DNA of 48,666 bases from a virus: IMG/VR virus record IMGVR_UViG_3300025164_000005, positions 1-48,666 of that record; one strand, written 5' to 3'. Both the position numbers and the translations under genes were made by a program. The notes below the pieces were generated by a model. It was given only the letters and a program-made list of their open reading frames with translations. It ran no database searches and had not been told where the DNA came from. Each line of letters begins with the position of its first letter. Within the stretch, counting starts at the first letter, position 1. Positions 5,209-24,435 of this stretch are shown here, one piece after another.

Positions 5209-5230
5209 AGTTATATTTTACCATGCCAGG
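5201..5230. repeat. Inverted repeat over the HNH start codon
   Basis: CCTGGCAT (5201-5208) and ATGCCAGG (5223-5230) are perfect 8-bp arms with a 14-bp centre. The repeat covers the HNH start codon and -10 region, and lies 14 bp before the AGGAGG ribosome site of the tail tube gene. It could be an operator for the HNH promoter, or an RNA hairpin in the plus-strand late transcript. Confidence 0.6.
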
Positions 5231-5243
5231 ACTTCAATTTCAA
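5215..5243 (-). promoter_or_regulatory. Own promoter for the HNH gene (leaderless transcript likely)
   Basis: On the minus strand TTGAAA (5243-5238) and TAAAAT (5220-5215) are separated by exactly 17 bp, a good sigma70-type promoter. The start codon is only 6 bp beyond the -10 element, so transcription would begin at or near the ATG. The mRNA would then be leaderless, which explains the missing ribosome-binding site. Confidence 0.6.
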
Positions 5244-5257
5244 TAGGAGGTTTTATC

Positions 5258-5827
5258 ATGAGTCTGCCCATACATGATATTGGGCCCTGCGAAGTGGTCT
5301 GGGGCTATGGCGAATCAGGCGCCATTGACCTCGGGCCGATGCTCGGCGCAACGGTCTACAAAGGCGAAACCCACGTTCAGGACATTTTCGAGGAACGGTA
5401 CGGCGACGCCCCGGTCGATGCCGTCATGATCGGTACCGTCGCAACGCTGGAGATCAGGATGACGCGCTCGACGCTCGAACAGCTCAACGAAATCCTGAAC
5501 GCCGGCGGAATCGAGGGTGCCCCCCCGCATGAGTACATCAAAATGCGGAATCAGATGTCCTGCGAGATGTACGACCTCGCCAAGTCGGTTGTGATCAAGC
5601 CCATCTGCGGAGACGTGGACGGTGTTCCCCAGACTTCGGACGACCCGGCCGAATGGGTGCAAATCTTCAAATGCTTCCCCGTCGCCGGTTGGGAGCTGAC
5701 CTTCGACAAGTCCACGCAGCGCGTCTTCCCCGTCACGTTCAAGATTTTCGTCTCCCAGGAAAGCGGCCAGGTGGGTGAATTCGGCACGCTCGGCATGCCG
5801 TCCGGTTCGACCGAGTACGGGTTATAA
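5258..5827 (+). CDS. Major tail tube protein
   Basis: The 189-residue product has an AGGAGG ribosome site at 5245-5250. The N-terminal region D-L-G-P-M-L-G-A-T-V-Y-K-G-E-T and the strand V-A-T-L-E-I-R-M-T-R-S-T-L-E-Q-L resemble siphovirus tail tube proteins, in which a ligand-like -G-A-T- strand precedes repeated beta structure. Gene order supports this: tail terminator before it, then two tail-assembly chaperone frames and a tape measure after it. Apart from its Shine-Dalgarno sequence, the 50 bp upstream are taken up by the HNH promoter and inverted repeat. Confidence 0.75.
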   Translation: MSLPIHDIGPCEVVWGYGESGAIDLGPMLGATVYKGETHVQDIFEERYGDAPVDAVMIGTVATLEIRMTRSTLEQLNEILNAGGIEGAPPHEYIKMRNQMSCEMYDLAKSVVIKPICGDVDGVPQTSDDPAEWVQIFKCFPVAGWELTFDKSTQRVFPVTFKIFVSQESGQVGEFGTLGMPSGSTEYGL

Positions 5828-5833
5828 TCAGCC

Positions 5834-6151
5834 ATGCCGAAGCTGAAAATCGACACGGCGACATCGCTCTATGAGCCGATAGAAGTTGAGATCGACGGCC
5901 AGAAATTCACGCTACGGCGCATCACGCGTGAAAAGCTCCGGGAAATAGAGGAGCTCGACAGGGCAATAGGGGAGGGGAATCTTGATGCCGCCTACAAGAG
6001 GCTCGAGGTCTTTTTCGGCCCGAGCGAAGCATTCTCCAAGCTTGACCTTTGCCAGGTCGGGGAGTTGGTCCGGTTTGTCGTCCGCGCCATCCTGAACCCG
6101 GAGACAGCCGAAAAAAACTTGTCGAATCCCGGGGAAGCCAAGCAGCCCTGA
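5834..6151 (+). CDS. Tail-assembly chaperone, unshifted form (G-like)
   Basis: The 105-residue product begins with an acidic/beta segment carrying E-V-E-I-D-G-Q-K-F-T-L-R-R-I-T-R, followed by helices with L-R-E-I-E-E-L. This matches tail-assembly chaperones located between tube and tape measure genes. These proteins bind the tape measure protein and recruit tube subunits, and are absent from the finished virion. It terminates at TGA 6149-6151, inside the loop of the frameshift-stimulating hairpin. Confidence 0.8.
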   Translation: MPKLKIDTATSLYEPIEVEIDGQKFTLRRITREKLREIEELDRAIGEGNLDAAYKRLEVFFGPSEAFSKLDLCQVGELVRFVVRAILNPETAEKNLSNPGEAKQP

Positions 6152-15403: not shown

Positions 15404-15429
15404 TTGACTTTTCTGAAAATCGGTATAAA
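15404..15429 (+). promoter_or_regulatory. Putative early promoter
   Basis: TTGACT (15404-15409) is followed by TATAAA (15424-15429). The spacing is 14 bp, shorter than ideal; using TAAATT (15426-15431) gives 16 bp. The surrounding A+T-rich stretch and the position at the start of the early gene block support a promoter for the operon starting at 15464. Confidence 0.5.
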
Positions 15430-15463
15430 TTAGTAAGCAGAATGAAGCGCTCGGGAAAGCATC

Positions 15464-15580
15464 ATGACCAAATCAAATGAGCAAATGATCCTTAGCCTCG
15501 GCCTATTGCCGCAAGGTAATAACCAAAGCTTTCCCGAGCTGGCCGAGGCGGGATCTCCCATATTGGCGGAATATGATTAG
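15464..15580 (+). CDS. 38-residue microprotein
   Basis: This is the first frame after the early promoter, about 35 nt from the -10 element. It encodes M-T-K-S-N-E-Q-M-I-L-S-L-G-L-L-P-Q and an acidic end, and overlaps the next start by ATGATTAG. The ribosome site is poor (GGGAAAG). It may be a leader peptide or a small early protein; no family is recognised. Confidence 0.35.
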   Translation: MTKSNEQMILSLGLLPQGNNQSFPELAEAGSPILAEYD

Positions 15581-15818
15581 CCTCCACCGCTCCTATTGTC
15601 CGCGCTGCGGTTATGAACAGCTCTTCAGACGCGGTCATTGCCTGACTTGCAATACTCAGGCCGGCGATATCGGACTTGAAATCCATATGAAAGTAAGGAG
15701 GTGCCATCGAGGTACATCCAAGATGAATCTTTCAGGCGCTGGAAACGAGGGGGGCGGCAACGCCCTCCTCAACCTTTCAGCGGGGCAAGGGGAATTGTTT
15801 GAAACGGGGGAGAAATGA
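15573..15818 (+). CDS. Small zinc-ribbon protein with clamp-motif-like tail
   Basis: The 81-residue product has a treble-clef-like zinc ribbon, C-P-R-C-G-Y then G-H-C-L-T-C (residues 9-26). The middle is rich in Gly and Asn. The C-terminus contains G-Q-G-E-L-F, close to the pentapeptide that binds bacterial beta-clamps (Q-L-S/D-L-F). It starts inside the end of the preceding micro-gene and overlaps the next gene by ATGA. Confidence 0.5.
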   Translation: MISLHRSYCPRCGYEQLFRRGHCLTCNTQAGDIGLEIHMKVRRCHRGTSKMNLSGAGNEGGGNALLNLSAGQGELFETGEK

Positions 15819-17775: not shown

Positions 17776-18802
17776 GGGAATTTCAGAAGCCAGGCGTATG
17801 CCGCGACTTGGGAAAATCCATCTCGGCGTGAAGAAGGCCGTAAAGAAGGACGGGACGCCCTGCGCGCCCTACCCTACTGAGGTTGAGTATTTCGTCTGTC
17901 CCCCGGAGGTTCAGGCAGTCTTCGGAGAGAAGCCAACAGAGTTGAAGATCATGATTCCCGTCGAAGAATCTGAGCGCTTTTTTCCCCAATACTACAAGCG
18001 TTATACGACAAACCTGCTTCAGTGCAAGGGGGATGGAGAAAAAGCCTTTTGCTGGGCTGACGAAGGGGGCCTCAAGGAAATTCCCTGTCCCTGCGATTAT
18101 CTCAAGTCGGGGGACTGTAAGCAGATAGGGATTTTCTGCTTTCTCATGCCGGACGTCCAAGGATTCGGAATTTACCAAATCACGACAAGCTCCAAAAATT
18201 CCATCATCGATCTGAATTCCGGCCTTGATATGATACGCGCCATCGCCGGACGTGTGCGCATGATCCCCTTGATTCTCAAGCGGCAAAAGATGGAAATACA
18301 GCGCATCGAGGCGGAAGGGGGAAAGCCCAAGAAATCCACGCACTACACAATGAAGATCGACCTGGACGAAAAGATGACTCTACGTCAACTCCAGCAATCT
18401 GCGCAAGTCAAACCGGAGATGATTTTGCTGCCTCCCCCGGACGAGGACAAGGACGACCTCTTCTATCCCCCGAACGGCTTCAAGCCCGAAGACGAGACCG
18501 AAGAGGCGAAGCCGGCGCTGGAAGCAAAACCGAAGGATGTGGCCAAAGCGAAAGAAGACGAGGAGAAAAAGAAGGCCAAGGAAAAGGAGGCCTTCGAGAA
18601 GGCGGAGCTCGTGAAGGCGGGCCACGACCTCGAAGCGCTGCTCAAGGGCTATCAGGATCTCGGCGGAAAAATCATGAAGGAACAGGCTGAGCGGATTACC
18701 GAGCTCAAGACAAAGGCCGAGATCGATAAGGCCATCGAGTTCTTCAAGCTCAAGAAGCAGGCCATCGAGAAGCAGGCCGGAGACGGCGAGATCCCGTTCT
18801 AA
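17768..18802 (+). CDS. Gp3/RDF-like phage protein with SSB-like C-terminal tip
   Basis: The 344-residue product starts M-I-K-G-I-S-E-A-R-R-M-P-R-L-G-K-I-H-L-G and has a Cys-rich middle (C-K-G-D-G-E-K-A-F-C-W, C-P-C-D-Y-L, G-D-C-K). This resembles the phage family annotated as recombination-directionality-factor-like or metal-binding (Gp3-like). A charged low-complexity linker rich in K, E and A (about 225-285) leads to a helical region. The protein then ends G-D-G-E-I-P-F, strikingly like the D-D-I-P-F tip of bacterial SSB. An ssDNA-binding or recombination role beside the nuclease is plausible. A GGAGG ribosome site lies at 17758-17762. Confidence 0.6.
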   Translation: MIKGISEARRMPRLGKIHLGVKKAVKKDGTPCAPYPTEVEYFVCPPEVQAVFGEKPTELKIMIPVEESERFFPQYYKRYTTNLLQCKGDGEKAFCWADEGGLKEIPCPCDYLKSGDCKQIGIFCFLMPDVQGFGIYQITTSSKNSIIDLNSGLDMIRAIAGRVRMIPLILKRQKMEIQRIEAEGGKPKKSTHYTMKIDLDEKMTLRQLQQSAQVKPEMILLPPPDEDKDDLFYPPNGFKPEDETEEAKPALEAKPKDVAKAKEDEEKKKAKEKEAFEKAELVKAGHDLEALLKGYQDLGGKIMKEQAERITELKTKAEIDKAIEFFKLKKQAIEKQAGDGEIPF

Positions 18803-18812
18803 GGAGGAGATA

Positions 18813-19481
18813 ATGGCAAACGAAATTGTCAACAGCAATTTGGTAGTCATCGAGACCGCCCTGTCCTTTCCGGAGAAGGCACGCACCCTGGTGATCACAA
18901 ACGATGCGACATTCCGGGCGGCGAATGACCTTCAGGCCGCGGATAAGCAGATGCAGAAGTTAGTCCACGAAGCCTTTGATCCGACCGTGGACGCCACGAA
19001 CAAAGCCCACGACATGGCGCTGGCCCAACGTGCCCGCTATCTTAATCCCTTGCTCGAAGCAGAGAAAATTATCAAGCCGAAACTCGGGGCATGGCTGGCC
19101 GAACAGGCCCGAATTCGCCAGGAGGCCTTAGACAAGGCCCGGCGGGAGGCTGCCGAGGCTGAGCGCAAGCGGCTGGCCGCAATGCAGGCGGCGATCGACG
19201 CCGAGAACGCGGGGAAGACCGTAGAAGCCGAGAAGCATTTCGAAGAGGCCGTCGCCATCGAGACGCCGAAGACTATCATCCCTGATCCCATCAAGGCCCA
19301 AGGCACATTCCTTCGCAAGGAGACCAAGTGGCGGGTCGTTGACCTCGGCGCCGTCCCCCGAGAATTCCTGGCGCTTGACCGCGCCCGCGTAGAGCAGATC
19401 TTCCGGATTCAGCGGGAGAAGATGGCCATCCCGGGAATTGAGACGTACTTCGATGAAACAGTCGTCAGCCGAACATCCTAA
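18813..19481 (+). CDS. Coiled-coil phage protein of unknown function
   Basis: The 222-residue product has an AAGGAGGAG ribosome site. The N-terminal half is a long helix rich in A, E, K and R (about residues 40-145), probably a coiled coil. The C-terminal end, T-K-W-R-V-V-D-L-G-A-V-P-R-E-F-L-A-L-D then I-P-G-I-E-T-Y-F-D-E, is conserved in many siphovirus proteins found beside recombination genes. A role in recombination or ssDNA handling is inferred from context only. Confidence 0.6.
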   Translation: MANEIVNSNLVVIETALSFPEKARTLVITNDATFRAANDLQAADKQMQKLVHEAFDPTVDATNKAHDMALAQRARYLNPLLEAEKIIKPKLGAWLAEQARIRQEALDKARREAAEAERKRLAAMQAAIDAENAGKTVEAEKHFEEAVAIETPKTIIPDPIKAQGTFLRKETKWRVVDLGAVPREFLALDRARVEQIFRIQREKMAIPGIETYFDETVVSRTS

Positions 19482-19653
19482 CCGCGACCTTATGATTTTC
19501 TGTGGAAAGTGTGGCGGCCTATTCGTTTGGCACTCGGCCATAGACGCGCAGTGGATGAAGTGCCTGGGCTGCGGGGATCTCCACGACCTGGCCGATCCGG
19601 GAACGCGGGTCGGGGAGATTGCGGCTCGGGGAAGACGGGAGCGGAGAGTTTGA
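19453..19653 (+). CDS. Small zinc-ribbon protein
   Basis: A 4-Cys ribbon, C-G-K-C-G-G and C-L-G-C-G-D, spans about residues 17-40. A basic tail, R-G-R-R-E-R-R-V, follows. The start is uncertain: ATG 19453 overlaps the previous gene by 29 bp, and ATG 19492 is an alternative without a visible ribosome site. It is the last gene before a transcription terminator. Confidence 0.55.
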   Translation: MKQSSAEHPNRDLMIFCGKCGGLFVWHSAIDAQWMKCLGCGDLHDLADPGTRVGEIAARGRRERRV

Positions 19654-19658
19654 ACATG

Positions 19659-19729
19659 CGGGGCCGGGCCGGTCTTTTCTTTGGGTATTCCCCCCACCCT
19701 CCTTTCAACGAGCCTGGCCCCGTTTTTTT
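19659..19729 (+). terminator. Rho-independent terminator
   Basis: CGGGGCCGGGC (19659-19669) pairs with GCCTGGCCCCG (19712-19722) in an 11-bp GC-rich stem with one G-U pair. Seven T residues follow at once. The 42-nt loop is longer than usual. It closes the early operon and isolates the downstream promoter. Confidence 0.75.
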
Positions 19730-19741
19730 ATTAAATCATCC

Positions 19742-19770
19742 TTGACAACGCAGGAGTGATGGGGTAAATT
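19742..19770 (+). promoter_or_regulatory. Strong promoter for the replication initiator
   Basis: The consensus -35 TTGACA (19742-19747) and TAAATT (19765-19770) are separated by exactly 17 bp. Transcription would start near 19777, just before the structured leader and about 118 nt before the initiator start codon. Confidence 0.8.
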
Positions 19771-19778
19771 CATGGCAT

Positions 19779-19869
19779 GCGGACCAGACAATGCGAGACG
19801 AAATAAAACCCTTAGCCCCCTCCTGTCTGCGCAAGCAGATATCCAAAGCACTGGTCCGCTGGAGGGGGC
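19779..19869 (+). ncRNA. Structured 5' leader, predicted H-type pseudoknot
   Basis: Two perfect 9-bp helices interlock. GCGGACCAG (19779-19787) pairs with CTGGTCCGC (19851-19859). GCCCCCTCC (19815-19823), inside that loop, pairs with GGAGGGGGC (19861-19869) outside it. The downstream arms are one base apart, so the helices could stack. A further hairpin, TGTCTGC-GCAA-GCAGATA (19824-19841), with a GNRA tetraloop, sits between them. The element starts at the predicted 5' end of the mRNA and ends 25 nt before the initiator ATG, so it could control initiator synthesis. No known riboswitch class is recognised. The two helices could instead be alternatives. Confidence 0.7.
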
Positions 19870-19894
19870 GGGGTCTTCATATCGGGAGAAATTG

Positions 19895-20590
19895 ATGGGA
19901 TTTACGAAACTGGATGAGGGGATTCTACAATCATCTATCATGGCTGAAGACTCCGATACATTCAAAATTTGGATTGCCCTAATGGCTTCATGTGAGGCGG
20001 ATGGAATCGCCAGAATTTCACCTGCTTATTTAGCTAATGTTTGTCACATACCAATTGAAATTGTCACGCGAGCTTTTGATAAATTTTTAGGACCCGACCC
20101 GCAATCACGGAACAGCAAGAGAGAAGGGCGTCGAATCGAGAGGGTTAAACATGGATGGAAGTTATTGAATTATCAACACTATAGAAGATTTCTTTACTCT
20201 GATAGTCCCGATGCTATTCGTCAAAGAAGGCACAGAGAAAAAATCTGTGACAAGCGTGACGTGTCACAAAAAGGCGTGACATCTCTGCTTCTGCCTCATA
20301 TTTCTTTTATATTCTCTTCTCTTAAATGGGAAGGAATAACAGAAGATGATCTAATCAGATGGAAGGAAGCATATCCGGTCTGTGACATCAAGATAGAACT
20401 CGCCCGGATGAGAGAATGGATAATCTCGAACAGACAGAAGGGAAAGAAGTCGAATTGGCGGCGGTTCATCACAAACTGGCTTTCGCGGGTGCAGGACAGA
20501 GGGGGAACAAAAGACGGAACCCCGAAGCGGACAGATGAGGAATGGAAAGAATTCAGCGAGTTGATCAAAAAGAAAGAGACGCTGAAATGA
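19895..20590 (+). CDS. Phage replication initiator (O/DnaD-like)
   Basis: The 231-residue product has the N-terminal winged-helix pattern of phage replisome organisers. It runs K-L-D-E-G-I-L-Q-S-S-I, W-I-A-L-M-A-S-C-E-A-D-G-I-A-R-I-S, L-A-N-V-C-H-I, then S-R-N-S-K-R-E-G-R-R-I and W-K-L-L-N-Y-Q-H-Y-R. The start at 19895 was chosen because homology begins there and GGGAG lies 7 nt upstream. The open frame back to 19772 falls in the structured leader. The gene is A+T-richer than its neighbours, suggesting separate ancestry. It probably binds the origin candidate within its own coding sequence and loads helicase together with the next gene. Confidence 0.75.
   Translation: MGFTKLDEGILQSSIMAEDSDTFKIWIALMASCEADGIARISPAYLANVCHIPIEIVTRAFDKFLGPDPQSRNSKREGRRIERVKHGWKLLNYQHYRRFLYSDSPDAIRQRRHREKICDKRDVSQKGVTSLLLPHISFIFSSLKWEGITEDDLIRWKEAYPVCDIKIELARMREWIISNRQKGKKSNWRRFITNWLSRVQDRGGTKDGTPKRTDEEWKEFSELIKKKETLK
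20247..20335. other. Candidate replication origin (iterons plus A+T-rich tract)
   Basis: Four GTGAC/GTCAC boxes fall within 34 bp (20247-20251, 20256-20260, 20263-20267, 20276-20280), two of them as GCGTGAC with 20-bp spacing. Another pair at 20043-20047 and 20063-20067 is also 20 bp apart, and one more lies at 20382-20386. The cluster is followed by a pyrimidine- and A+T-rich tract (about 20281-20335). Iterons followed by an A+T-rich unwinding region inside the initiator gene is the lambda ori/O layout. Confidence 0.5.
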
Positions 20591-21318
20591 GAGAGATGGT
20601 ATTCAAGGAACAGATCGGAAGGATGGAGGCGTTGTTTCGGCGGAAACTCGAGGCCGGAGTTCTGGCCGAGTATTGGCGGGCCCTGCATTATGTGGAAGAC
20701 GAGGTGTTTGAGAAGGCCGTGGACTTCGTTGCGTCTTCCTTCAAGCCGTTTCCCTCGGAACCATTCCCTTCGGTGGCCACGATTGAGTCAGCCGTTATAG
20801 ACATGAAAGAAGAAGGTATGGATGAGGTGTACGAGCCGGAAAGGGAAGGCGCACCGCCGGATTATTCGGCCCTTGACTTCTGCCAGAAATGCGGAAATTT
20901 AGGGTTATTTTTGGACGAGTTAGTCGCCCGATTTTGCTCTTGCGAGAAGGGCCGGTTGAAGAAGGCTTCTTGGAATGTCGAACCGGCATACTCAAACTGG
21001 GAGAAGAAGAAGCGAGATGAAAAGATCCAGATGAACCTCGCGAGATTGCCGCAGAGCGCGGGTCCGGTCCGCGGGCTTCAGGAAAAAAACGCCCTGGGTT
21101 TCTGGGAGGCAAACGCGGTCGAGCATGAGGCGTGGTGCGCAGACAAGCGAAAGCAGATCGAGGAAATTAAGCGACGGCGAGAGGAGCTTGAGGAAAAACG
21201 ACGGGAGGAGAAGAAGATCCTTGTGCCCGGGTCGTTGAAGCGGATACTCGAAGAAACGATGGCCCAGGTGTCGGAGAGGATGCCGGAGACGGAGGAGGAC
21301 GGAGATGTTCCTTTCTAA
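20587..21318 (+). CDS. Helicase-loader-like protein with zinc ribbon and SSB-like tip
   Basis: The 243-residue product (start chosen at the ATGA overlap with the initiator) has an N-terminal helical region. Its pattern E-Y-W-R-A-L-H-Y-V-E-D-E-V-F-E-K-A-V and F-P-S-V-A-T-I resembles phage helicase loaders of the G40P-loader type. A zinc-ribbon-like C-Q-K-C-G-N and C-S-C-E-K-G lies near residues 99-123. A charged helical segment (E-E-I-K-R-R-R-E-E-L-E-E-K-R-R-E-E) and a final E-E-D-G-D-V-P-F tip similar to SSB follow. Pairing with the initiator supports a replication role; the exact family is uncertain. Confidence 0.6.
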   Translation: MREMVFKEQIGRMEALFRRKLEAGVLAEYWRALHYVEDEVFEKAVDFVASSFKPFPSEPFPSVATIESAVIDMKEEGMDEVYEPEREGAPPDYSALDFCQKCGNLGLFLDELVARFCSCEKGRLKKASWNVEPAYSNWEKKKRDEKIQMNLARLPQSAGPVRGLQEKNALGFWEANAVEHEAWCADKRKQIEEIKRRREELEEKRREEKKILVPGSLKRILEETMAQVSERMPETEEDGDVPF

Positions 21319-21358
21319 GACGTACAAAGATTTTAAATACGAGGCGAGGCTTTAGGCC

Positions 21359-21763
21359 ATGAACAAAGTATTGTTTTCTTCTCTGTCCTCCCATTGGAAT
21401 ACCCCAGGCTTTCTCTATTATCAATTAAAGGCAGAATTTCATTTCAATGACGATCCCTGTCCCTCGGGCGGTCTTTTTGGATTAGATAGGCCGTGGGGAA
21501 CATCGACATATTGCAACCCGCCTTATGGCCGCGCTGTCGGCGAATGGATCGAAAAAGGAATCATTGAATACAAGCAAGGTAAGACAGTTATTTTCCTGCT
21601 TCCGGTAAGGACAGATACAAAGTGGTTTCATGATCTTATTTTGCCTAATGCCCCAGAAATCCGATTTATCCGGGGACGATTAAAATTCACAAGACCGGAT
21701 GGCACATTTGGATGCGCTCCATTCCCGAGCATGATAGTTATTTTTAATGGGCGGAAAACATGA
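21359..21763 (+). CDS. Phage DNA N6-adenine methyltransferase (Dam type)
   Basis: The 134-residue product has the catalytic C-N-P-P-Y-G-R motif (about residues 53-58). It also has the short-form pattern W-N-T-P near the N-terminus, F-L-L-P-V-R-T-D-T-K-W-F and F-I-R-G-R-L-K-F, typical of the phage Dam family. It probably methylates adenine in phage DNA, protecting against host restriction or marking replicated DNA. It overlaps the next gene by ATGA. Confidence 0.85.
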   Translation: MNKVLFSSLSSHWNTPGFLYYQLKAEFHFNDDPCPSGGLFGLDRPWGTSTYCNPPYGRAVGEWIEKGIIEYKQGKTVIFLLPVRTDTKWFHDLILPNAPEIRFIRGRLKFTRPDGTFGCAPFPSMIVIFNGRKT

Positions 21764-22005
21764 ACCCCGTCTGTGAATGCCATGGTGAGGGTATGTACCT
21801 TAAGGACAATACCGCCGTTTTCTGCGAATGTCCCGAGGGCCGCCGGCGCAAGTCGGCGTGGATATTGGCCGGCGAGATTGTGCAAGAGGAGGCCAGGAAG
21901 GATCGGGCGAAACGGTTGCGACGCAGGGCAAAGCCGGTCCACGATTATAAGGCAGAGGCGGGAGGAGAGCGGGAACCGGGGGAGGACGAAATTGTCCCTT
22001 TCTGA
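21760..22005 (+). CDS. Small Cys-rich protein with SSB-like tip
   Basis: The 81-residue product has a C-E-C-H-G-E-G and C-E-C-P-E-G-R ribbon (residues 5-28), a basic helix (K-D-R-A-K-R-L-R-R-R-A-K) and a C-terminus G-E-D-E-I-V-P-F. The zinc ribbon resembles that of the loader-like protein at 20587. The acidic tip ending in I-V-P-F is the third of its kind in this genome. Confidence 0.6.
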   Translation: MNPVCECHGEGMYLKDNTAVFCECPEGRRRKSAWILAGEIVQEEARKDRAKRLRRRAKPVHDYKAEAGGEREPGEDEIVPF

Positions 22006-22312
22006 TTTCATCCTCTCCATCCTCCGCGCCCACCACCGGGGCCGGGCCAACGCGATCACGCGGGAGGACTTATTGAATTATTTGCATAGCCTTGGCTATG
22101 GCCTTTCTGATCGAGACTTAAGAGAGATTTACGCCGAGCTTCCCATAGTCTCCTCATCACGGGGTTTGTTCTGGCCGGAGAGCCGGGCCGAGCTTGAGGA
22201 GTACCGTTTGTATCTCAAAGCTAAGGCTATCCCATTATTCGAGCGCTGGCAACGTGTCGCCCAGGCCCATCCCGAATTGATTGACGCGCAACAGGGGGAG
22301 TTATTCCCATGA
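21992..22312 (+). CDS. Winged-helix-like protein with C-terminal clamp-motif
   Basis: A TTG start at 21992 is preceded by GGGGGAGG at a good distance, giving about 106 residues. The product begins S-L-S-D-F-I-L-S-I-L-R-A-H, continues with A-I-T-R-E-D-L-L-N-Y-L and L-S-D-R-D-L-R-E-I-Y (helix-turn-helix-like), and ends Q-Q-G-E-L-F-P. The last residues fit a beta-clamp-binding pentapeptide. It overlaps the previous gene by 14 bp. Confidence 0.55.
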   Translation: MSLSDFILSILRAHHRGRANAITREDLLNYLHSLGYGLSDRDLREIYAELPIVSSSRGLFWPESRAELEEYRLYLKAKAIPLFERWQRVAQAHPELIDAQQGELFP

Positions 22313-22360
22313 CCAAGCGGATCGAGATAGAGAATTTTGGGAGGAATTAAAGGAGAGACA

Positions 22361-22690
22361 ATGAACGCTAAAACACTCAAGGCACTCAAGGGCAGTATCC
22401 GCAAATGGGAAGACATTATTGCGGGAACAGGAGTGGATCAGGGGGTATATAATTGTGCCCTTTGTTCCCTGTTTTATTGGGCGAAAAAGCATTGTGTTTT
22501 TTGTCCTGTGTTCATTGAAACGGGGAAACAATATTGTTATGAAAGCCCCTATGCCGATTGGGTGGCACATCAACGCGACTGGCATCATGTTCCAATAAAT
22601 AAATACCACATCATATGCCTTGCTTGTCACCGCTTGGCCAAGGCCGAACTCGCCTTTCTAAAATCTCTACTGCCGAAGGAGAAACCATGA
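22361..22690 (+). CDS. Conserved Cys-rich phage protein
   Basis: The 109-residue product has an AAGGAGAG ribosome site. It carries the pattern K-W-E-D-I-I-A-G-T-G-V-D-Q-G, then N-C-A-L-C and C-V-F-C-P-V-F-I-E-T-G and a later C-x-x-C. I recognise this pattern from many phage proteins of unknown function, where paired Cys probably bind zinc. The next gene starts in an ATGA overlap. Confidence 0.65.
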   Translation: MNAKTLKALKGSIRKWEDIIAGTGVDQGVYNCALCSLFYWAKKHCVFCPVFIETGKQYCYESPYADWVAHQRDWHHVPINKYHIICLACHRLAKAELAFLKSLLPKEKP

Positions 22691-23285: not shown

Positions 23286-23465
23286 ATGACCAAACCTAAT
23301 CGCTTCTTATCCGTCCTTGCCTGGGCCATCCTCGTATTGGCCGCGCTGTTCATCGTCGTCATTTCCCTGGACGAGCGGTGCTCCCGCCATGAGGCAACCT
23401 GGACGGACGGCGGCGGGAGGCATGCGACGGAAATGACGAGCGGGAAGGTGAGTGACGATGATTGA
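23286..23465 (+). CDS. Small single-TM protein
   Basis: The 59-residue product (ATG 23286) has a strong membrane helix (V-L-A-W-A-I-L-V-L-A-A-L-F-I-V-V-I) and a hydrophilic tail. It overlaps the radical SAM gene by 8 bp. No domain is recognised. Confidence 0.5.
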   Translation: MTKPNRFLSVLAWAILVLAALFIVVISLDERCSRHEATWTDGGGRHATEMTSGKVSDDD

Positions 23466-24435
23466 GGAAACAGAGGAAATATTTTGGGACCGTCTTGCTA
23501 GACGAGCCGAAGAAACTAAGCGTGCTTTAAGCATTGGGGGAATTCCGCAAGTTGTGCGATTAGTAGCTCACGTCACGTCGCTTTGTAATATGACTTGTCG
23601 ATATTGTTCGAACAGGAAGAAGAATTCTCAGATAATGACGCAGGAATTATTTAGGAGCCTAATTCAAAGGGCTGGCCCACAAGGAGTAGTCCACATTACC
23701 GGGGGTGAACCTTCGCTGGTTCCTTGGTTGGAAAAGGAAATACAAGGACAAAAAGGCAATACTCGTTTTGCCTGGAATTCTAATCTATTGATTATGCCTC
23801 AAGACAAAACCCTTGAATCGCTTTTCCGGGTTAAAACCTCCTTGGATGATTGCCATGCCGATAGATGGAACGAATTAACGGGAGGCGACCATTTTGATAG
23901 AGTCGTAGAAAATATAAAAAGATGTTGCCAGGCATTAAGCCATGTTTCGGTTTCTTTCTGCGCTACGCATCAGAACGCTTTTAGGTTTGATAATTTCATC
24001 CGTTTTTGCCAAACAGAGTTCCCTGGATTGTTTTCCATATCGGCATCTTTTTATAAGGGAAAAAACAAATCCCTAATCCTCACCAGGGATGATGTAGACC
24101 AGCTTTTCTTTTATGCCAATGAACTCGACCCCGTTTCCCAGCAAATTTTCAAGACTACCCATTATAGGGGTGGGAATAATTTTCCGCATAACATTGAAAT
24201 TCCCTGCTATTTATCAATGACCGAACGCTTGTATGACGAATGGGGGGATGAATACTATTGTTCTCATTTGTTTCGTGACAAAGTTGCTCCTCCGGGCAAT
24301 CCGGGCAAAGATTCCCATTGTGTTACCGGCTGTAACTATCGGTTTGTAAAATACAATCAAGAGATACACGAATATTTAAGCAAAGGACGCCATGTTGAAG
24401 AAATGCTGTCGGAGAAAGTGTCGGAGGAGGATTGA
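23458..24435 (+). CDS. Radical SAM enzyme with C-terminal cysteine set
   Basis: The 325-residue product has the radical SAM cluster motif C-N-M-T-C-R-Y-C (C43, C47, C50; C-x3-C-x2-C) after a T-S-L strand, and the SAM-binding I-T-G-G-E-P-S (residues 80-86). Four further Cys near the C-terminus (C250, C268, C288, C292) could hold an auxiliary Fe-S cluster as in SPASM/Twitch enzymes. Start ATG 23458 is preferred because AAGGTGAG lies six bases upstream. The gene is visibly A+T-richer than its neighbours, suggesting transfer. Its substrate is unknown. A peptide-modifying role is suggested only by the next gene, which encodes a short Cys-rich product. It is not QueE-like, which has a different Cys spacing. 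Confidence 0.85.
   Translation: MIEETEEIFWDRLARRAEETKRALSIGGIPQVVRLVAHVTSLCNMTCRYCSNRKKNSQIMTQELFRSLIQRAGPQGVVHITGGEPSLVPWLEKEIQGQKGNTRFAWNSNLLIMPQDKTLESLFRVKTSLDDCHADRWNELTGGDHFDRVVENIKRCCQALSHVSVSFCATHQNAFRFDNFIRFCQTEFPGLFSISASFYKGKNKSLILTRDDVDQLFFYANELDPVSQQIFKTTHYRGGNNFPHNIEIPCYLSMTERLYDEWGDEYYCSHLFRDKVAPPGNPGKDSHCVTGCNYRFVKYNQEIHEYLSKGRHVEEMLSEKVSEED

Follow-up and report, generated by a model that had tools for sequence, protein, structure and literature searches.

Few RNA elements that govern the onset of lytic growth in temperate phages are known, and most of these are antisense or antitermination systems. In phage T4, a pseudoknot is present in the mRNA leader at a replication gene, gene 32, and the put RNA of phage HK022 consists of two simple stem-loops. 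In the IncI-alpha plasmid ColIb-P9, translation of repZ needs the formation of a pseudoknot (PMC8383071), whereas the replication operon leader of satellite phage P4 is subject to premature termination (PMC4825925) and the mRNA leaders of the rep initiators of pIP501 and pT181 to attenuation (PMC4981023). A related order of elements is found in type III toxin-antitoxin and AbiF units, where a promoter, a structured RNA, a terminator and a gene follow one another, with read-through into the gene (PMC12373285).

Here, we describe a pseudoknotted leader RNA in an uncultured phage, using as "the window" the whole 48,666-nt stretch of DNA that was analysed (IMG/VR record IMGVR_UViG_3300025164_000005). 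Like the ColIb-P9 repZ leader, it places a pseudoknot 5' of a replication initiator and ties it to a leader reading frame, which in ColIb-P9 is repY; unlike in ColIb-P9, the knot lies at the 5' terminus and is found before a non-replication operon as well. It resembles P4 in occupying the leader of an operon for phage replication, and pIP501 and pT181 in occupying that of an mRNA for a replication initiator. However, ColIb-P9, P4 and pIP501 are all antisense-controlled: ColIb-P9 has the antisense RNA Inc, P4 relies on an antisense RNA and the complementary sites seqA and seqC, and the long pIP501 leader (about 300 nt) has a counter-transcribed antisense RNA and no 5'-end knot of this kind. In our locus, a scan for minus-strand sigma-70-like promoters over 18500–22500, which covered this promoter type, found none near the leader and a sole one at 20714; no partner of the seqA/seqC kind was seen for the two leaders of the window, and the arms of these two copies of the RNA are unrelated.

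The T4 gene 32 leader differs in both topology and position. Type III toxin-antitoxin and AbiF units share the order promoter, structured RNA, terminator, gene, but this assignment was rejected because the downstream genes here encode replication initiators or zinc-ribbon proteins, a repeat array is lacking and Rfam gives no AbiF match. We also rejected an HDV-like ribozyme, which is a nested double pseudoknot in which a P4 helix and a catalytic C precede P2's 3' strand: only 1 nt separates A' from B' in our element, and no such Rfam match appears up to E = 10. In Rfam 15, no match in the window, whether to ColIb-P9 and T4 elements or to any other, reaches the gathering threshold, and the leader, its second copy and their relatives give only sub-threshold, unrelated matches. 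Comparison of the leader DNA with cultured phages and plasmids returned nothing relevant, the exact A'-B' pattern retrieved only an identical fragment from IMG/VR, and the open-access literature yielded no description of this element.

A 5'-terminal pseudoknot precedes the replication initiator

The leader is bordered by a promoter and the initiator gene, and the region comprises the following features:

19659–19722, + strand: upstream GC hairpin, the C-rich loop of which (CTTTGGGTATTCCCCCCACCCTCCTTTC) is conserved, followed by a T run; a separate element, conserved in six phages
19742–19770, + strand: sigma-70-like promoter, TTGACA-17-TAAATT, matching 10 of 12 positions of the E. coli consensus, by which the promoters were judged
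19779–19787, + strand: arm A, GCGGACCAG, perfect complement of 19851–19859, at the predicted 5' end of the transcript
19791–19895, + strand: leader ORF, MRDEIKPLAPSCLRKQISKALVRWRGRGLHIGRN and a stop; its TGA (19893–19895) overlaps the initiator ATG as TGATG
19815–19823, + strand: arm B (C in the family consensus), GCCCCCTCC, perfect complement of 19861–19869
19824–19841, + strand: hairpin D, TGTCTGC-GCAA-GCAGATA, with a GNRA loop, immediately 3' of arm B
19851–19859, + strand: arm A', CTGGTCCGC, within the loop of the B hairpin and 1 nt 5' of B'
19861–19869, + strand: arm B' (C'), GGAGGGGGC, then GGGGTCTTCATAT; the U-run is only weak here
19895–20590, + strand: protein of the replication initiator or replisome organiser type with a winged-helix N-terminal domain, named from PHROG matches of its relatives

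The order A-B-A'-B' at 19779–19869 and its two perfect 9-bp helices are read directly from the sequence. The original prediction proved accurate for the arm pairs, the GNRA hairpin between B and A', the gap of 25 nt between the 3' end of the element and the initiator ATG (19895), and the place of the promoter; the transcription start at about 19777 is predicted from the promoter alone. An A-B-A'-B' arrangement with 9 + 9 bp occurs once in the real window and is found at all in 3 of 100 dinucleotide-shuffled windows, while 20,000 local shuffles of 19777–19880 give none. When folded to minimum energy with nested pairs alone (z = −2.66), the sequence retains B:B' and hairpin D, and A' stays mostly in a loop, as a pseudoknot would require, and the isolated helices have energies of about −17 (A) and −20 (B) kcal/mol. 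That the element is a genuine 5'-end RNA pseudoknot and its fold real is, in our judgement, close to certain. A long in-frame ORF from ATG 19772 was considered as an N-terminal extension of the initiator and rejected, as it starts 5' of the predicted transcription start and is absent in relatives.

A second copy heads another early operon

A layout scan revealed a second copy of the RNA in the same window (15449–15549), heading another early operon; the original prediction had missed this copy, as well as the leader ORF at 19791–19895. Its features are:

15404–15431, + strand: promoter, TTGACT-16-TAAATT, again judged by the E. coli consensus
15449–15460 and 15528–15539, + strand: arms A and A', GCTCGGGAAAGC and GCTTTCCCGAGC (layout scan)
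15464–15580, + strand: leader ORF of 38 codons, whose stop overlaps the start of the next gene
15495–15503 and 15541–15549, + strand: arms C and C', GCCTCGGCC and GGCCGAGGC (layout scan)
15504–15521, + strand: hairpin D, TATTGCC-GCAA-GGTAATA, with a GCAA loop (layout scan)
15573–15818, + strand: small zinc-ribbon gene after the second copy, head of an early (exonuclease, Gp3-like) operon

All helices differ in sequence between the two window copies and each is still complementary; A pairs with A' within each leader, and the arms of one copy are unrelated to those of the other. Common to both are the one-base T joint and the loop letters CCTTAG, GCAA, CCAAAG and GGGRTCTYCCAT. The two copies are homologous, as the covariance model described below indicates. 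A pattern of differing helices with a shared joint and shared loops is expected if one common factor recognizes both RNAs, as in a protein-binding autoregulatory site or regulon element, where a phage or host protein would read the knot and the conserved loops and act on both early operons at once, much like the T4 gene 32 system. We consider this explanation unlikely: no candidate binder was identified, and the 15 further copies described below have few loop letters in common.

The second copy also bears on the proposal that the leader controls replication, which needs revision as worded: the RNA is not replication-specific, since the same genome carries it before a further early operon, the copy there has orthologues in two related phages, and still other copies precede other early genes. 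A riboswitch, a copy-control element and a protein-binding site, all named in the original prediction, are at most possible roles.

Compensatory changes in related phages

The zinc-ribbon gene is preceded by the same RNA in two related phages (L009, at 823, and L221), with nearly identical promoters. In a plain, structure-free MAFFT alignment of these two sequences and the second window copy, RNAalifold predicted a ten-pair A:A' helix with all 30 of 30 cells paired, in which five of the ten pairs have changed on both sides. When the 3' arm was slid, pairing fell to 23–54% and compensations to 0. A covariance model built from the same three sequences (R1), with the 19779 element left out, detected the 19779 element with a score of 35.6 bits and E = 8.9e-7 in a search of 705 kb; the best unrelated match after it had E = 1.8.

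With all four sequences aligned by this model, built without the 19779 copy, and the pseudoknot written out, 95.1% of the cells are paired, and 16 of 26 pairs have changed on both sides and still pair (A, 7/10; C, 5/9; D, 4/7); this alignment was fitted to A and D, so its counts lean towards structure, whereas the three-row alignment is unfitted. None of 500 shuffles reaches the four-sequence result, and slid registers pair at 39–51%. These compensating mutations in related phages indicate that the fold is real. Homologous leaders devoid of compensatory changes were to refute the original prediction; the leaders analysed here do carry such changes, which bears out its claim of a structured leader RNA.

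A wider family defined by architecture

Searching viral contigs with the initiator N-terminus, we read 93 distinct upstream regions and recognized the same layout in 13 of the contigs (L015, L016, L018, L020, L024, L026, L028, L029, L052, L083, L087, L093 and L117), namely a promoter, arm A near +1 and A' abutting the 3' strand of hairpin C. Whole-contig scans located two more copies in the L024 phage (L211, L209), before a zinc-ribbon-like ORF and an HTH-like ORF. The 15 further copies in 13 other phages, nearly all of them directly before replication initiators, belong to a total of 19 copies in 16 phage contigs. The whole-contig scan gave 24 matches in 727 kb versus 4 in shuffled sequence, and the best shuffle scored 67.8 versus 74–95 for clear members. 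Two upstream regions (L194 and L074) were rejected as false positives, as position, promoter and joint do not fit.

Among these relatives, A mostly starts 111–127 nt 5' of the gene, with 145 and 172 as extremes. Its start usually coincides with the predicted start of transcription, and promoter spacing is similar in most. The gap between A' and C' is 0–1 nt in most relatives, and, given A and A', a helix abutting in this way would rarely arise by chance (Fisher p = 1.6e-10). In some relatives, A:A' extends to 12–15 bp with a linker of 1–7 nt, which may make full A:A' and full C:C' mutually exclusive. Sequence similarity links L024 to L026; apart from these two and the group of four, the members share only the layout, and for them convergent evolution is possible. 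We conclude that the leaders represent a new family of 5'-terminal pseudoknot RNAs heading early operons in uncultured phages.

Pairing on the + strand includes 20 G.U pairs versus 4 A.C mismatches, an excess expected of an RNA, in a count biased by seeds that allowed G.U. This one-strand excess, the promoter placed at arm A, the knot topology and the second copy away from replication genes all speak against a DNA-level feature such as an operator, cruciform or origin that acts without any RNA; inverted repeats near a replication gene would be compatible with one, but the chance of this explanation is next to negligible.

In the nearest relatives (L002, L007, L009, L010 and L021), the leader is absent before the initiator and only the GC hairpin is kept. 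This pattern pointed at first to an insertion confined to one lineage, a view that the broader search with the initiator overturned. The initiator's only match in the genome collection is to a Candidatus Aminicenantes genome without the RNA, and no such leader was seen, where readable, before prophage-like initiators in Aminicenantes and the same phylum. Model R1 gave one weak match in 396 genomes of the Aminicenantes phylum, a false positive located within a hydrolase gene. As a separate observation, the L024 phage carries two small zinc-ribbon-like genes (L211, about 1380 and 12847) that are 85% identical, and the pseudoknot RNA precedes only one of them.

The initiator and its neighbourhood

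Relatives of the initiator match the PHROG replication initiation O-like and DnaD-like families, and its C-terminal part is similar to a phage replisome organizer. A winged-helix-like fold is predicted for the protein, for which matches in the PDB are no more than weak, and the initiator N-termini of L093 and L087 have no match among cultured phages. Helicase- or primase-like ORFs, named by eye from sequence, often come next in related phages. The initiator at 19895–20590 shares its C-terminal part with L002 and differs in the N-terminal domain, the reverse being true for L007 and L010, a pattern that indicates domain swapping next to the leader. In initiators such as those of L047, L082, L034 and L042, the linker contains Ser-Ala repeats (SASASA) encoded by tandem TCTGCT-like DNA, which may represent intragenic iterons of an origin like those of lambda O. 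The early region of the phage also encodes a radical SAM protein (window 23452–24435).

Upstream of the promoter, the element that had been taken for a terminator consists of a GC stem, a long and conserved loop rich in C, and a T run. In the window (19659–19722) as in L002, L007, L009, L010 and L021, this loop contains CCCTCCTTTC, nine letters identical to the anti-Shine-Dalgarno end of 16S rRNA. The hairpin lies directly 5' of the initiator in relatives without the pseudoknot, and could be a mask for the initiator ribosome site (AAAGGA in L002 and L007) or a terminator. In L009 (about 5220–5900; this contig is also L014), an HNH homing endonuclease-like ORF lies between the conserved GC hairpin and the initiator; this slot thus accepts insertions.

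Terminator-like ends and leader reading frames

About 14 of the 19 copies have a U-run directly after the last stem, resembling an intrinsic terminator, whereas a good U-run is absent in both window copies and L083. In most copies, the start codon follows only about 16–30 nt beyond this end, which leaves no room for another promoter (except in L087), so that the gene must be reached by reading through the U-run.

A promoter and a terminator-like end in most copies, and the separation of the unit from the next gene in L087 and L209, would suit a trans-acting small RNA of about 110 nt, extending from promoter to U-run and serving superinfection immunity or antisense control in the way of the P4 CI RNA. 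Such a function seems decidedly unlikely, given the position fixed 16–30 nt 5' of a start codon in most copies, the leader ORFs coupled to the next gene, and the unrelated arms of the two window copies, which could not act on each other. Highly unlikely, too, is processive antitermination of the HK022 put type, in which RNA at the 5' end would make RNA polymerase ignore later terminators. Two structurally alike, promoter-proximal copies heading two early operons of one genome, both without a strong U-run, would agree with it; most relatives, however, have a terminator-like U-run, which is unexpected for an antitermination element, and a knot differs in architecture from two simple stem-loops.

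Eight copies contain a leader ORF (both window copies, L009, L221, L015, L016, L020 and L083), with its ATG 13–24 nt from the start of A and its stop at −3 to +20 relative to the start of the next gene. Compared with shuffles, eight of nine frames are open (p about 1e-3), which is only modestly unlikely by itself; the clustering of stops near the next start adds to this value. No obvious conservation is seen among the encoded peptides. Not every copy combines a U-run with a leader ORF, so a single mechanism for all of them is an assumption. Both features would go unexplained if the knot were a passive 5' cap that only shields early mRNA from 5'-end-dependent decay, for which a plain 5' hairpin would suffice; even with arm A starting, in most copies, on or close to the first base predicted to be transcribed, we view this role as very improbable.

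Proposed mechanism

The most likely function, held with about even confidence, would be control of early operons in cis, by attenuation or by gating of translation. This proposal builds on what is visible in the sequence: the covarying pseudoknot, the promoter-like sequence by arm A, the U-runs or coupled leader ORFs, and the positions at operon heads. From these we infer transcription, folding in vivo, termination, coupling and any ligand or protein.

In the attenuator or gate model, arm A, at the 5' end of the predicted transcript, pairs with A' inside the loop of the second hairpin (C, or C + B), a pairing that the sequence itself shows, and A' abuts the 3' strand of that hairpin, an arrangement that allows both helices to stack. 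This hairpin and the U-run before the gene would, in most relatives, end transcription, and the gene would be reached by read-through. The A:A' pairing may compete with, or stabilise, the hairpin before the gene, which ribosomes on the leader ORF would open. In the window subtype, marked by a weak U-run and by the leader ORF, a ribosome translating this ORF would have to hold arm A unpaired and work its way through the knot. The dose of the initiator and of other early proteins would then depend on whether the knot forms or melts, in response to ribosome loading or to the binding of a protein or ligand.

Significance

A strongly covarying structured leader is present in two copies in one phage and, as judged by architecture, in 15 further phage contigs, and it sits at genes that determine if the DNA of the phage is replicated. 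It constitutes a defined RNA family that can be tested with reporters. More tentatively, and with rather less than even confidence, it may represent a new class of phage RNA switch, in which several copies per phage would place different early operons under one shared signal by means of a 5'-end knot combined with a terminator or a ribosome-coupled leader ORF. The family also shows that structured RNAs in phage early regions escape sequence libraries, since their helices change almost completely from one relative to the next.
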